Source: Psychrobacter ciconiae (GTDB taxonomy: Bacteria > Pseudomonadota > Gammaproteobacteria > Pseudomonadales > Moraxellaceae). From it: 64,000 nucleotides of DNA. The stretch spans positions 1,488,001 to 1,552,000 of the forward strand of contig NZ_CAJGYV010000001.1 of NCBI RefSeq assembly GCF_904846055.1, in the 5' to 3' direction. A program made the position numbers and the translations under genes. Positions 24,185 through 50,740 of this stretch are shown here, piece after piece (positions within the stretch are counted from its first letter, which is position 1; each line of letters starts with the position of its first letter). The notes under the pieces were generated by a model that was given only the letters and a program-made list of their open reading frames with translations, was not told where the DNA came from and did no database searches.

Positions 24185-25418
24185 GCCGTAAAACCATGCC
24201 GTTCAGGGCGTGGATATCAGGCGACAGGCGTTGACGCTTAGAATTGTCTTAGGCTTGCTAAAATTCACTAAACCCAGCAAAATCAAACCATGAAAACCCT
24301 TAAACTCCGACTTAAAGACAAACACGCCAAACAACTGACCGCGATAAGTGGTTCGGTTAACTTTGTTTGGAACTATGTCAATGAGTTGAGTTTTAAGCAT
24401 TTACAGCGAACTGGAAAGTTTTTTAGCGCTTACGATTTAGCCGAATACACCAAAGGCTCAGGCGCTCTGCTTAGTTTACACTCGCAAACCATTCAAGCCA
24501 TTAGTGAAACTCACGCCAAAAGCCGAAAGCAGTTTAAAAAAGCTAAACTAAACTGGCGAACCAATAAGCCCAAAACAGGCAAAAAAAGCTTAGGTTGGAT
24601 ACCCTTTAAAAAGAGTGCCATTAAACACTTAGCCACGCGCCAAAGCGGTAAAAAGGCGCTGAAATCAACCATTCAATTAAGCTTAGCCAAAGGTCAAAAG
24701 CTGGTCATCGACCTTTGGGATAGCTACAATTTAGCCTTGTATGACCTAAACACTCTTGAGTTGGTTCAAGACGCAAGGGGTAGATGGTATGCGTGTATCA
24801 CGGTTAAAAACCACCCTAAAAAACATATTGAGCATGGCACAGGTCAAGTTGGCATTGATTTAGGACTCAAAGACGCGGCGACAACCTCAGATGGCGATAC
24901 CCTCACCGTCAAACAAACCTTAAAATGGGCTGAAAAATTGGCAACCGCCCAACGTGCTAAGAAGAAACAGCGTGTAACCGCCATTCACGCCAAGATTAAA
25001 AATACAAGACGAGATTTAATTCATAAATTCACCACGCAACTGGTTAAAGGCAATTCGCTGATTGTGGTTGGCGATATAAAATCAAAATCATTCACTTCTA
25101 AGAAAACCAAACTGGCTAAATCGACTTACGATGCAGGTTGGTTTGAGCTTAAACGGCAATTGGACTATAAATGCAAGCATGCAGGTTGTCGTTTTGAGAT
25201 TGTGAATGAAGCTTACACCACCCAAACCTGTTCAAGCTGTCGCCAAATCAGTGACAGTAGTCCGAAAGGTAGAACAGGCTTGCGAATAAGAGAATGGACT
25301 TGTGAGTGCGGTGTCACTCATGACCGTGATATCAATGCGGCAAAGAACATTCTTGCGGTCGGTCTTGACCGTCTTGCAGAAGGAATCCCCTCTCTTTAGG
25401 GAGGGGAGGAAGTCAAAA
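24185..25418 (+). mobile_element. IS200/IS605-family tnpB-only element (IS1341-like)
   Basis: About 1.23 kb with no terminal inverted repeats but subterminal hairpins, as in this family. The left end (24185-24222) contains CCATGCC-GTTCA-GGGCGTGG; the right end contains CCCCTCTC-TTTA-GGGAGGGG at 25387-25406. Both ends recur in a 272-bp element at 60993-61264, which fixes the shared boundaries. It carries tnpB only and no Y1 transposase tnpA, so it would need a helper to move. It lies between bamE and fur; the exact outer bases are uncertain by a few nucleotides. Confidence 0.85.
24290..25399 (+). CDS. tnpB: TnpB RNA-guided nuclease (IS605 OrfB family)
   Basis: TnpB proteins are RNA-guided DNA nucleases, ancestors of Cas12, that help their element persist. 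The 369-residue product is intact. It has an N-terminal OrfB_IS605 helical region, RuvC-I Asp D190 (GIDLGLKD), a zinc ribbon with C314, C317, C338 and C340, and RuvC-III Asp D347 (HDRDINAAKNI). The RuvC-II position, normally Glu-Asp, reads VVGD (G261-D262). A Glu at E307 (IVNEAYTTQTC) could supply the missing carboxylate, as reported for TnpB lineages with a displaced glutamate. A guide RNA is expected to overlap the 3' end. Confidence 0.92.
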   Translation: MKTLKLRLKDKHAKQLTAISGSVNFVWNYVNELSFKHLQRTGKFFSAYDLAEYTKGSGALLSLHSQTIQAISETHAKSRKQFKKAKLNWRTNKPKTGKKSLGWIPFKKSAIKHLATRQSGKKALKSTIQLSLAKGQKLVIDLWDSYNLALYDLNTLELVQDARGRWYACITVKNHPKKHIEHGTGQVGIDLGLKDAATTSDGDTLTVKQTLKWAEKLATAQRAKKKQRVTAIHAKIKNTRRDLIHKFTTQLVKGNSLIVVGDIKSKSFTSKKTKLAKSTYDAGWFELKRQLDYKCKHAGCRFEIVNEAYTTQTCSSCRQISDSSPKGRTGLRIREWTCECGVTHDRDINAAKNILAVGLDRLAEGIPSL

Positions 25419-47335: not shown

Positions 47336-49537
47336 ATGATGAAAAAACAACCAGCACAGTGGTTACTGAGCATTGCGTCCGTGGGCGTTGTGGGTCTTAT
47401 TTTGACTCAAAGTTATGGTACAGCGGTGGCTGAAACCAACAGCAGCGGCTTTGCCGCCACTCCCGAGCAAAAGCTGACCACGCGTCAGGTTGCCGCCTTG
47501 TTAGACCGAAGTCATTATCTCAATCAGCCGCTTGATAGCAAAACCGGCGCGCAGATTTTGGACATGTATCTTGACGGTCTTGACCCCAATCACACCTTAT
47601 TTTTACAATCTGATGTCGATGAATTTAAACAAAAATACGCAAGCGACTTTGGAATGCGCCTAAAGCGCGGTGATCTAAGCGCGGGAGTCGATATTTTTGA
47701 GCGCTACCGCAAACGCTCTAACGAGTATTTCGATTTGGCAAGCCGCTTGCTTAAATCTAATTTAAAATTGACAGGCAATGATAGCATCGTGCTTGACCGC
47801 GAAAAATTGCCGCATTTTAAAACCAAAAAAGATCAGCGGGATTACTGGACCAAACAGATTAAATTTCAGCTGATTAGCATTACCTTAGGTCAAGAGGACG
47901 AAAAAGGTAAAGAAAAAGTCTTTATCGACAATCCGGATATTGCCTTGGGTCAAGATTTGGTTCGTAATGACACCCGATCACCCAATGAGATTTTGCTTAA
48001 TCGCCTAAAACGTCAACAGGAGCAGTTGCAGCGCTTTACCGATGATGAAATCATGGAAACGGTGCTCAATACTGCCATGCTGACTTACGATCCGCACAGC
48101 AACTATTATGCGCCGATTCAAGCCACCGAGCTACAAATCCAGTCCAGCCTTCAACTTGAAGGCATTGGCGTCTCCATCCGCCCTGATCGAAAAAATCCCG
48201 ACTATACGCGGATTGTGACCTTGGTTGATGGCGGTCCTGCTGCAAAAAGCGGTCAGATTAAACCCAATGATTTGATTATCGGCATCGCCAAAGACGGCAA
48301 AAATATGACCGATGTGGTCGGTTGGTCAACGCGTGAAATCGTCAGCCTAATCCGTGGCAAGCGTGGTACGCCCGTCACCTTAAAAGTGCGGCAGCCCAAC
48401 GCTCCTGAAGCAAGCGCAAGAACGGTCACCGTCGTTCGCGATGTGATTGAGCAAGAAGAATCGGGCGTGACTCAGCGTGTGGTCAATGTTCAGCGTAAAG
48501 GCATTGATGAGACGCCCAAACGTATCGGCGTTCTTGAAATCCCAAGCTTTTATTTAAACTATCGAGCGCGCCGCAATGGCGAAGAATACCGCAGCGTCAG
48601 TGTTGATACTGAGCGCGCCCTTAAGCAGCTCAACGCGCAAAATATTGACGGTCTTGTCGTTGACTTGCGCAACAACCCTGGTGGCTCACTCGATGAAGTT
48701 GCCAGAATGCTCGGACTGTTTATCAAAAGTGGACCGTTAGTACAAATCCGTGATAACCGCGGCAACGTTCAAGTGTTTCGCGATGACGACGGCGGCGCTC
48801 AGCTTTATGATGGCAAAATGGTGGTGCTGACTAACTTAGCTTCCGCTTCCGCCAGTGAGATTTTTGCTGCTGCCATTCAAGACTATGGTCGCGGGTTGGT
48901 CGTTGGTAGCACCACAACGGGTAAGGGTTCTGCGCAAATTCAGCTTGATAATTTAGCGTTAGGATCAGCGACCTTAACGCAGCGCAAATTTTACCGCGTC
49001 ACTGGTGGCAGTACCCAAAATAAAGGCGTGGTTCCGGATGTGAAACTGGTCAATATCTATGATGACGCCACCTTTGGCGAGCGCGCTCAAAAAAATGCCT
49101 TGCCTTGGGACACCATCAAGACCGCACCATTTAAGCCTGAAGGTAAATTTAGCGCCACCACGCTTGCGACCTTAAATCAGCAATCCAAAATCCGCCAAGC
49201 GCAAAACCCGCAGTTTGTTTATTTAAGCACCTTAAATAAAATTCGCGATATGGAAGATGAGAAAAAGCCCATTAAGCTTGATATCAATAGCCGCCGCGCT
49301 AAAATGAAGCTTGTGGAACAAAAGACCCTTGAGGCTGAAAATCAGCGCCGAAAAGCCCTAGGCGAGCGCCCTTATGCCAATTGGAGCACCTATCAGGCGC
49401 AAATGGATGCCAAATTTGAAGAACGCAGCCAAATGAAAGCCAGTATCCGCCCGCAACTGCCTGAAGATGAAGCTTATATCCATGAGGCGGCAACCTTAAT
49501 GCTCAGCGCCGCCCCAACCCCAGTTTCTGCGCCTTGA
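47336..49537 (+). CDS. prc: Carboxy-terminal (tail-specific) processing protease Prc
   Basis: Prc/Tsp is a periplasmic serine protease that degrades tagged or misfolded proteins and trims wall hydrolases. The 733-residue product is somewhat longer than E. coli Prc (682). It has a signal peptide (cut near AVAE), a helical N-domain, and a PDZ domain (about 265-350: EGIGVSIRPDRKNPDYTRIVTLVDGGPAAKSGQIKPNDLIIGI). The S41 core has the nucleophile Ser in TNLASASASEIFAAAIQDYGRG and the Lys in STTTGKGSAQIQLDN. A DUF3340-type C-terminal region follows. Start ATG 47336 is followed by a second ATG. It is the gene just before the putative GacA-controlled RNA. Confidence 0.95.
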   Translation: MMKKQPAQWLLSIASVGVVGLILTQSYGTAVAETNSSGFAATPEQKLTTRQVAALLDRSHYLNQPLDSKTGAQILDMYLDGLDPNHTLFLQSDVDEFKQKYASDFGMRLKRGDLSAGVDIFERYRKRSNEYFDLASRLLKSNLKLTGNDSIVLDREKLPHFKTKKDQRDYWTKQIKFQLISITLGQEDEKGKEKVFIDNPDIALGQDLVRNDTRSPNEILLNRLKRQQEQLQRFTDDEIMETVLNTAMLTYDPHSNYYAPIQATELQIQSSLQLEGIGVSIRPDRKNPDYTRIVTLVDGGPAAKSGQIKPNDLIIGIAKDGKNMTDVVGWSTREIVSLIRGKRGTPVTLKVRQPNAPEASARTVTVVRDVIEQEESGVTQRVVNVQRKGIDETPKRIGVLEIPSFYLNYRARRNGEEYRSVSVDTERALKQLNAQNIDGLVVDLRNNPGGSLDEVARMLGLFIKSGPLVQIRDNRGNVQVFRDDDGGAQLYDGKMVVLTNLASASASEIFAAAIQDYGRGLVVGSTTTGKGSAQIQLDNLALGSATLTQRKFYRVTGGSTQNKGVVPDVKLVNIYDDATFGERAQKNALPWDTIKTAPFKPEGKFSATTLATLNQQSKIRQAQNPQFVYLSTLNKIRDMEDEKKPIKLDINSRRAKMKLVEQKTLEAENQRRKALGERPYANWSTYQAQMDAKFEERSQMKASIRPQLPEDEAYIHEAATLMLSAAPTPVSAP

Positions 49538-49555: not shown

Positions 49556-49583
49556 TCGCTTGTAAGTAAATGCTTACAAGCGA
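49556..49583. promoter_or_regulatory. GacA box (upstream activating palindrome) of the putative Rsm/Csr RNA
   Basis: TGTAAG at 49561-49566 and CTTACA at 49573-49578 are separated by TAAATG, an exact match to the Pseudomonas GacA upstream activating sequence TGTAAG-N6-CTTACA. The symmetry extends to 11 bp per arm. It has no T-run, so it is not the prc terminator, and it lies 18 bp past the prc stop codon. A weak promoter follows: TTGAGC (49603-49608), 18-bp spacer, TGTAGT (49627-49632). Confidence 0.75.
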
Positions 49584-49639
49584 TGACGCCTTAACCTCTT
49601 CTTTGAGCCGTTCAAATTTGCGATGATGTAGTCACTGCC

Positions 49640-49854
49640 CGATGAGGTTGTGGCAAAACGCTTTACTAGGGATTGGTTAAGCCTGCCACATTAGCCATCG
49701 GTTAAGGACAGTAAGTTCATTAGGGATGATGAAAAAAACAAGGGTAGGATGCCCGCAGTGATTTGAGGTCTTGGGATTGGACATCAAGTGACTGATTCAA
49801 GGAAGAAAGGTTGGCAAAAAAACCGTATAACGATCGTCGTTGTACGGTTTTTTT
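49640..49854 (+). ncRNA. Putative CsrA/RsmA-sequestering small RNA (CsrB/RsmY/RsmZ type)
   Basis: An RNA of roughly 200 nt is inferred between the GacA box and a strong terminator. It has GGA motifs at about 49670, 49705, 49724, 49747, 49774, 49779 and 49801, several as AGGGA/AAGGA. Predicted hairpins place GGA in loops: GCTTTAC / GTTAAGC (49660-49682, loop TAGGGATTG), TTCAT / ATGAA (49716-49733, loop TAGGGATG), GGGT / GCCC (49742-49754, loop AGGAT) and GTCT / GGAC (49768-49782, loop TGGGATT). Such loops are the CsrA/RsmA binding sites of known titrating RNAs. No protein frame with a ribosome site explains the region. The 5' end is uncertain by about 20 nt. Confidence 0.68.
49815..49854 (+). 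terminator. Intrinsic terminator of the putative small RNA
   Basis: A long stem (AAAAACCGTA paired with TACGGTTTTT, continued inward by AACGA / TCGTT with one mismatch) and a seven-T run at 49848-49854. It lies 280 bp past prc, too far to be simply its end. Confidence 0.9.
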
Positions 49855-49898
49855 GTTTGTTGGTGCTTATCATCTTATCGTTGATAAAATTTGAGTAT

Positions 49899-49928
49899 AA
49901 AAAAGCCCGTGACAGTCACAGGCTTTTT
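49899..49928 (-). terminator. Intrinsic terminator after slyD
   Basis: AAAAAGCC-x-GTGA / TCAC-x-GGCTTTTT stem with one mismatch, about 50 bp past the slyD stop codon on the minus strand. Confidence 0.82.
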
Positions 49929-49976
49929 ATGCATCGTACAAAAAGTTGCACCGATTATCAGTTTACATCGAGCAAA

Positions 49977-50462
49977 TTAGTGCTCAACACCGCCTACCCC
50001 GTGAACGTGACCGTGGTTCAATTCGTCTTCGGTTGCCGCTCGGACTTCTTGAATTTCCACATCAAAGGTCAAGCGCTGACCGGCTAGCGGATGGTTGGCA
50101 TCAACGGTCACTTCTTTGTCATTGACATCGATAACGGTGACCAGCATCACTTGACCGCCAGCTTCTGATTGAAACTGCATCCCAGGCTGAATGTCTTCAA
50201 CGCCTTGGAAGTTTTCGCGAGGAACGCGCTGAACTGCTTGCTCTTGGTACTCGCCATAAGCGTCGGCAGGCTCAATCACCGCGTGGACTTGTTCGCCCGC
50301 TGATTTGCCTTCGAGCTGCTTTTCAAGCCCTGGAATGATGTTTTGATGACCATGAAGGTAGGCAAGTGGCTGACCTTCTGGTGATTTATCAATGATATTG
50401 CCCTCATCGTCTTTTAACGTGTAGTTAAACTTGACGGCGGTGTCCTTTGCAATGGTAGTCAT
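49977..50462 (-). CDS. slyD: FKBP-type peptidyl-prolyl isomerase, SlyD-like
   Basis: SlyD-type proteins combine prolyl isomerase and chaperone activity and bind nickel with a His-rich tail. The start is ATG 50462 with AGGAT upstream; nine more open codons lack support. The 161-residue product has the FKBP half-domain (VKFNYTLKDDEGNIIDKSPEGQPLAYLHGHQNIIPGLEKQLEG), an insert-in-flap chaperone domain (about 70-125: VIEPADAYGEYQEQAVQRVPRENF) and the closing HPLAGQRLTFDVEIQEVR. The His tail is short (HGHVHGVGGVEH), so metal delivery is likely weaker than in E. coli SlyD. Confidence 0.9.
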   Translation of the reverse strand: MTTIAKDTAVKFNYTLKDDEGNIIDKSPEGQPLAYLHGHQNIIPGLEKQLEGKSAGEQVHAVIEPADAYGEYQEQAVQRVPRENFQGVEDIQPGMQFQSEAGGQVMLVTVIDVNDKEVTVDANHPLAGQRLTFDVEIQEVRAATEDELNHGHVHGVGGVEH

Positions 50463-50740
50463 AAAAAATCCTAGTTTGGTTGTTATCAAGTAATAAACCT
50501 AAAAAAGCCAATCAGCCAGCCAAAAAGCCACCTTACCAGTCAATTATCATCAGTTTATTAAGAGCAAGCGTTAAGTAACTGAAATTGCAGTTAGCCTATT
50601 AATTGAGATGGGGCGATTAACTTTCAAGGCAGAATTTAAAAAAATTAAGGCTAAATTAAAATTTAGCACAAAAGCGCGTCGGTTGCCTTTTTAATGACAT
50701 ACTTTTACTATGAAGCATCATAATAGAATAAGTTGCCCCT

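Follow-up and report, generated by a model that had tools for sequence, protein, structure and literature searches.

Small RNAs that GacA activates and that titrate CsrA are a familiar kind in Pseudomonas and E. coli, and the candidate from Psychrobacter described here is a fresh example rather than a surprise. CsrB and CsrC of E. coli, which titrate CsrA under BarA-UvrY just as we infer for the Psychrobacter RNA, are longer and carry more GGA sites. Rfam has families for both of these, as it does for RsmY and RsmZ. Searched at the gathering score, the window (the whole 64,000-nucleotide stretch of Psychrobacter ciconiae DNA that was analysed) gave no Rfam match, and at E values up to 1 six loci drew four sub-threshold matches, none of them to a Csr/Rsm family. 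A first-pass annotation had likened the RNA to RsmY, RsmZ and CsrB; the likeness holds for these as analogues, but not for their Rfam models, which went unmatched. At title level, the Psychrobacter and Moraxellaceae literature yielded no report of an RNA between prc and slyD; Kulkarni 2006, reportedly the original predictor of such RNAs and possibly of one in Psychrobacter, lies outside that scope.

RsmX, RsmY and RsmZ of Pseudomonas have a GacA operator consensus that is the same as the Psychrobacter box (PMC9911603), and they resemble the Psychrobacter RNA in carrying multiple GGA sites and in that one genome has several of them (PMC8395346). Gel shifts of GacA on promoter probes with TGTAAG-N6-CTTACA, from Pseudomonas mosselii, appear in PMC9911603. 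The Psychrobacter RNA differs from the Pseudomonas RNAs in its own sequence, hairpin order and neighbours, and from these and the E. coli pair alike in lacking an Rfam match. Acinetobacter belongs with Psychrobacter to the family Moraxellaceae. RsmX, RsmY and RsmZ of A. baumannii and the RNAs of A. baylyi ADP1 are listed solely as products of inspecting genomes or of prediction (PMC7366521, PMC5568370), the Acinetobacter RsmX/Y/Z of PMC7366521 having been found by inspection and not characterised, and RsmY and RsmZ candidates from Rfam are named for A. johnsonii (PMC4993456). The prc-slyD RNA is absent from the accessible parts of PMC9927453, PMC12306157 and PMC4993456.

Sequence comparison establishes a GacA box, covarying hairpins, a terminator and conservation among relatives, and shows that the genome encodes CsrA, a GacA-like regulator and a BarA/GacS-like kinase. 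It is because of the conservation, the covariation, these three proteins and two more box-led GGA stretches that we think it very probable that the prc-slyD gap is the gene for a GacA-activated, CsrA-titrating small RNA, as the first-pass annotation had proposed.

Layout of the prc-slyD gap

The gap measures 439 bp, as first annotated, from the stop of prc at 49537 to that of slyD at 49977. Upstream lies prc itself (47336-49537, plus strand), a tail-specific protease scoring above the cut-off of NCBIfam model TIGR00225; the convergent neighbour (49977-50489, minus strand) is a slyD-type peptidyl-prolyl isomerase whose best NCBIfam model falls below its cut-off. The sole listed open reading frame that extends into the gap, 49788-50087 (99 aa), overlaps slyD antisense and was judged not credible as a gene, which leaves the gap free of genes as had been claimed. 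By eye, a second hairpin with an A-run and a T-run can be seen at the end of slyD (49900-49928), where the terminator scan reports none. Elsewhere in the window, an IS605-type OrfB/TnpB-like gene occupies 24290-25399 on the plus strand. The proposed link to nearby type IV pilus genes gained no support from Pfam at E 1e-8, where the 10 open reading frames searched, out of 50 of at least 140 aa, gave no match to a pilus family.

Motif search finds the exact TGTAAG-N6-CTTACA palindrome that had been noted, a putative GacA operator on the plus strand at 49561-49578, with a published consensus and GacA gel shift (PMC9911603). It sits within a palindrome with 11-bp arms (49556-49583, no strand assigned) whose flanks, 49556-49560 and 49579-49583, covary moderately at prc loci. 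Across the genome, 2.48 Mb in 2 contigs, the exact box occurs just three times and the pattern written backwards not at all; base composition predicts about 0.005 per window and 0.19 per genome. All three lead GGA-containing intergenic DNA, with eight GGAs within 400 nt at the locus labelled L001, seven at the window locus and five at L003. The terminator scan is positive at the window locus and L003 and finds nothing at L001, where by eye a longer-looped hairpin stands ahead of a T-rich stretch. Judged by their sequences, the neighbours are presumably carboxypeptidase-like and YgfZ-like genes at L001 and endonuclease/phosphatase-like and PpiD/SurA-like genes at L003.

Between box and RNA, two promoter elements of the plus strand were read by eye: a second conserved element, TGACG...CTCTT (49584-49601), and an extended -10, TGC-GATGAT (49619-49627), which begins 40 bp beyond the box. 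The window has poor -35 letters, as would suit a promoter that needs an activator, and a general sigma-70 scan of the gap finds no promoter. The -10 letters are TGCGATTAT in 25 of 31 aligned prc-type sequences and TGCGATGAT in the window and one other; tandem copies, described below, carry TGCGATTAT, TGAGATTAT or close variants, GGCATTAT or GGCACTAT, without TG, is frequent in the second RNA type, and L003 has CCTATAAT. For L001, the sigma-70 scan does report a promoter on the matching letters, TTAACA-17-GATTAT with TG, though chance alone would give about one such match. At prc-type and second-type loci alike, TGACG...CTTA recurs in the stretch from box to -10, and it is missing from L003; at some loci the element forms a near-palindrome, GACGC-GCGTC.

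The predicted RNA, about 224 nt on the plus strand, would extend from 49634, a 5' end placed by the -10, to 49857. Six to seven GGAs after the box, at least four of them in loops, had been annotated; the gap has seven, starting at 49670, 49706, 49724, 49747, 49774, 49779 and 49801, and four of these (49670, 49724, 49747 and 49774) lie in hairpin loops of the predicted fold, with unpaired probabilities of 0.99-1.0. They belong respectively to plus-strand hairpin 1 (49662-49680, loop GGGAU, with its outermost pairs partly broken in this genome), hairpin 3 (49716-49733) and hairpin 4 (49742-49754, GGGUA-GGA-UGCCC), both backed by fold and covariation, and hairpin 5 (49756-49794), in which 11 of 12 pairs are changed on both sides. 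The GGA of conserved hairpin 2 (49706-49708, plus strand), weakly folded in this genome, is mixed in its pairing; that at 49779 falls within a stem, and the last (49801-49803, plus strand) is single-stranded by alignment and fold, with an unpaired probability of 0.92-0.96. The strong terminator expected to close the region is placed by the scan at 49814-49856 on the plus strand, and relatives have similar hairpins. The fold of 49600-49860, terminator included, has a z score of -5.85, equalled by none of 200 shuffles. The number of GGAs is ordinary for the composition, with at least seven in 548 of 2000 dinucleotide shuffles and the A(N)GGA count of the locus reached in 129 of 2000, and was rejected as stand-alone evidence; what exceeds chance is the position, structure and conservation of the GGAs.

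Conservation and distribution in Psychrobacter

A scan with the Prc protein returned 72 loci, 67 of them labelled Psychrobacter, and removal of three Bacteroidota-type loci, two from Moraxella MAGs and one truncated locus left 66. The box follows prc at 61 of these (53 exact, eight with one mismatch), and at 41 of the 61 all six GGA offsets from the box (109, 136, 158, 171, 199 and 226, within 1) are filled; the remaining 20, like the window locus, have a shifted or incomplete ladder. The five prc loci without a box are L059, L089, L093, L095 and L099, and in the first three the prc-slyD gap is just 227-247 bp with zero to two GGAs. By eye, the sequence at prc locus L098 looks like the other RNA type.

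For covariation, 31 of the 62 available sequences (61 loci plus the window) were aligned, L098 being omitted and near-duplicates thinned by eye. Across the five GGA hairpins, 96% of cells are standard pairs and 18 of 31 pairs are changed on both sides, values reached by none of 500 shuffles. Structures slid by 1-3 columns give 32-52% standard pairs, a comparison in which the predicted structure is favoured because it was taken from the consensus of the same alignment. In all 31 sequences the GGAs in the loops of hairpins 1 and 5 stay unchanged while the stems covary; the box, unlike the hairpins, is conserved by letter.

Plain BLAST with a 330-bp region reaches only 8 of 57 genomes including its own, or 7 of 56 relatives, mostly through box or terminator, and covariance models were used in its place. 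Model R1, built from 21 of the 31 aligned prc-type sequences, matches 91 of 105 genomes of the genus at a threshold of E 0.01 (87 below 1e-10) and leaves 14 without a match, a result that is not independent, since the searched genomes probably include the species behind the model. Model R2, built from six sequences of the second RNA type, matches 102 of 105 (89 below 1e-10). Neither matches any of the 194 other genomes of the family, which sets the Psychrobacter RNAs apart from those of Acinetobacter in a comparison made at genome level. Of the 105 genus genomes, 102 contain one or more exact boxes (two boxes in 66 genomes, one in 19, three in 15, four in a single genome and five in another) and three contain none; a reversed control is non-zero in three of the 105. 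Of 30 box loci in a second genus of Moraxellaceae, probably Acinetobacter, nine lead six or more A(N)GGA within 330 nt, and the majority there are thus without a GGA-rich stretch. These nine (L017, L027, L028, L029, L036, L037, L039, L040 and L045) fall into several sequence classes, and the box loci of this genus fit the Acinetobacter RsmX/Y/Z named in the excerpt of PMC7366521. Among 72,556 plasmid records, the prc-slyD region has no match.

Weak matches to R1 or R2 cluster in some genomes, and six such stretches were fetched. Four (L146, L148, L150 and L151) carry a series of three exact boxes next to prc, all of them followed by GGA-rich sequence, with a 262-aa open reading frame between boxes one and two at L148. 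Other genes intervene at L147 (three boxes) and L149 (two), and both of these stretches include a YgfZ-like open reading frame. GacA in the four prc-array genomes is 80-81% identical to the query; most of the genus is at 88-91%. The YgfZ-like gene found beyond the array at L146 makes it plausible that a single array between prc and ygfZ was later split into prc-type and ygfZ-type RNAs.

The prc 3' end and alternative readings

The RNA might instead derive from the prc 3' UTR, prc read-through into the hairpins yielding an RNA cut from the prc mRNA or part of it, with the GacA promoter second or absent. Consistent with this, among 12 loci checked, a hairpin with a T-run follows prc at RNA-less L059 and L089 (by eye), at tandem loci L148 and L151, and also at Moraxella locus L101, while no hairpin precedes that of the box after prc at the window locus or at the main-clade loci L050 and L065, and at the latter two it is the best and has no T-run. 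The box, however, leads GGA stretches at two loci of this genome away from prc, with a -10-like sequence at similar distance, and we regard a 3'-UTR origin as improbable.

Sequence alone also suggests a double use of the box: at the main-clade prc locus, the GacA operator might serve as the core of a 3' stem-loop of prc mRNA that replaces the prc terminator. We put this forward as a suggestion, and a rather doubtful one, because five loci go against it: L146, where the box is again the first post-prc hairpin but its arms are unextended, L093, with a post-prc hairpin and no T-run, and L095, L099 and L102, with no clear terminator after prc. If true, GacA binding, Rsm RNA synthesis and the ending of prc mRNA would be coupled, and prc read-through would be a second source of the RNA.

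Should the palindrome be no more than a hairpin or terminator that serves prc, or transcription antisense to slyD, the GGA hairpins would be unrelated to it. It has 11-bp arms and a minus-strand T-run in this genome, and its flanking arms covary: the six flanking pairs are all complementary at 37 of 61 prc loci, with at least five at 40, and in 36 of 37 distinct sequences (L098 omitted) 78% of cells pair, compared with 66% in shuffles, and 30 cells are changed on both sides, compared with 10.8, each reached by none of 500 shuffles. This covariation is moderate, since shuffles match the further pair types in 15 of 500 cases and the pairs changed on both sides in 103. The letters of the box core, on the other hand, are fixed rather than covarying, and among 28 other box loci examined L147 and L149 alone reach five or more of the six flanking pairs, the other 26 falling short. 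Beyond the stem, the mean count of T on the minus and plus strands is 4.6 and 5.0 of 12 across the 61 loci; with the T-run not conserved, the box as terminator was rejected, and we consider this reading highly improbable. Equally so is an Hfq-type antisense-pairing small RNA with incidental GGA motifs: a U-tailed terminator fits it, being typical of such RNAs too, but in hairpins 1 and 5 the GGAs of the loops do not vary above stems that covary.

Regulators and significance

CsrA is encoded once in the genome, as an 82-aa frame over the NCBIfam cut-off. The GacA-like regulator shares 44% identity with E. coli UvrY, and its best NCBIfam model, UvrY/SirA/GacA, scores 241 bits, below the cut-off of 280; a 1186-aa open frame is the candidate kinase, whose best model, BarA, scores 520 bits, below the cut-off of 890. 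At E 1e-40 or better, 104 of 105 genomes of the genus and 292 of 299 of the family encode a GacA-like protein. In the features of the functional class, then, the locus has an exact and conserved GacA operator upstream, several loop GGAs (four in the window, five covarying hairpins in 31 sequences) and a non-coding, intergenic position with an intrinsic terminator, in a genome with CsrA and with GacS/GacA, both Gac proteins being best matches below curated cut-offs.

For the GacA-activated RNA, we infer transcription, dependence on GacA, CsrA binding and titration along the following lines. Phosphorylated GacA would bind the palindrome at 49561-49578 and activate the extended -10 promoter with its poor -35; the resulting RNA (49634-49857) would display five to six GGA sites, most of which lie in the loops of hairpins, and these sites would bind CsrA dimers, drawing CsrA off target mRNAs in the manner of CsrB or RsmY/Z. 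The genome would have three such RNAs, this one included.

Psychrobacter, widespread and cold-adapted, thereby gains a concrete putative Gac/Rsm switch with three candidate RNA genes, and with it comes an RNA family of covarying structure that is absent from the Rfam version searched. One copy at prc here and three beside prc elsewhere in Psychrobacter may offer a natural series for the tuning of CsrA-decoy copy number.
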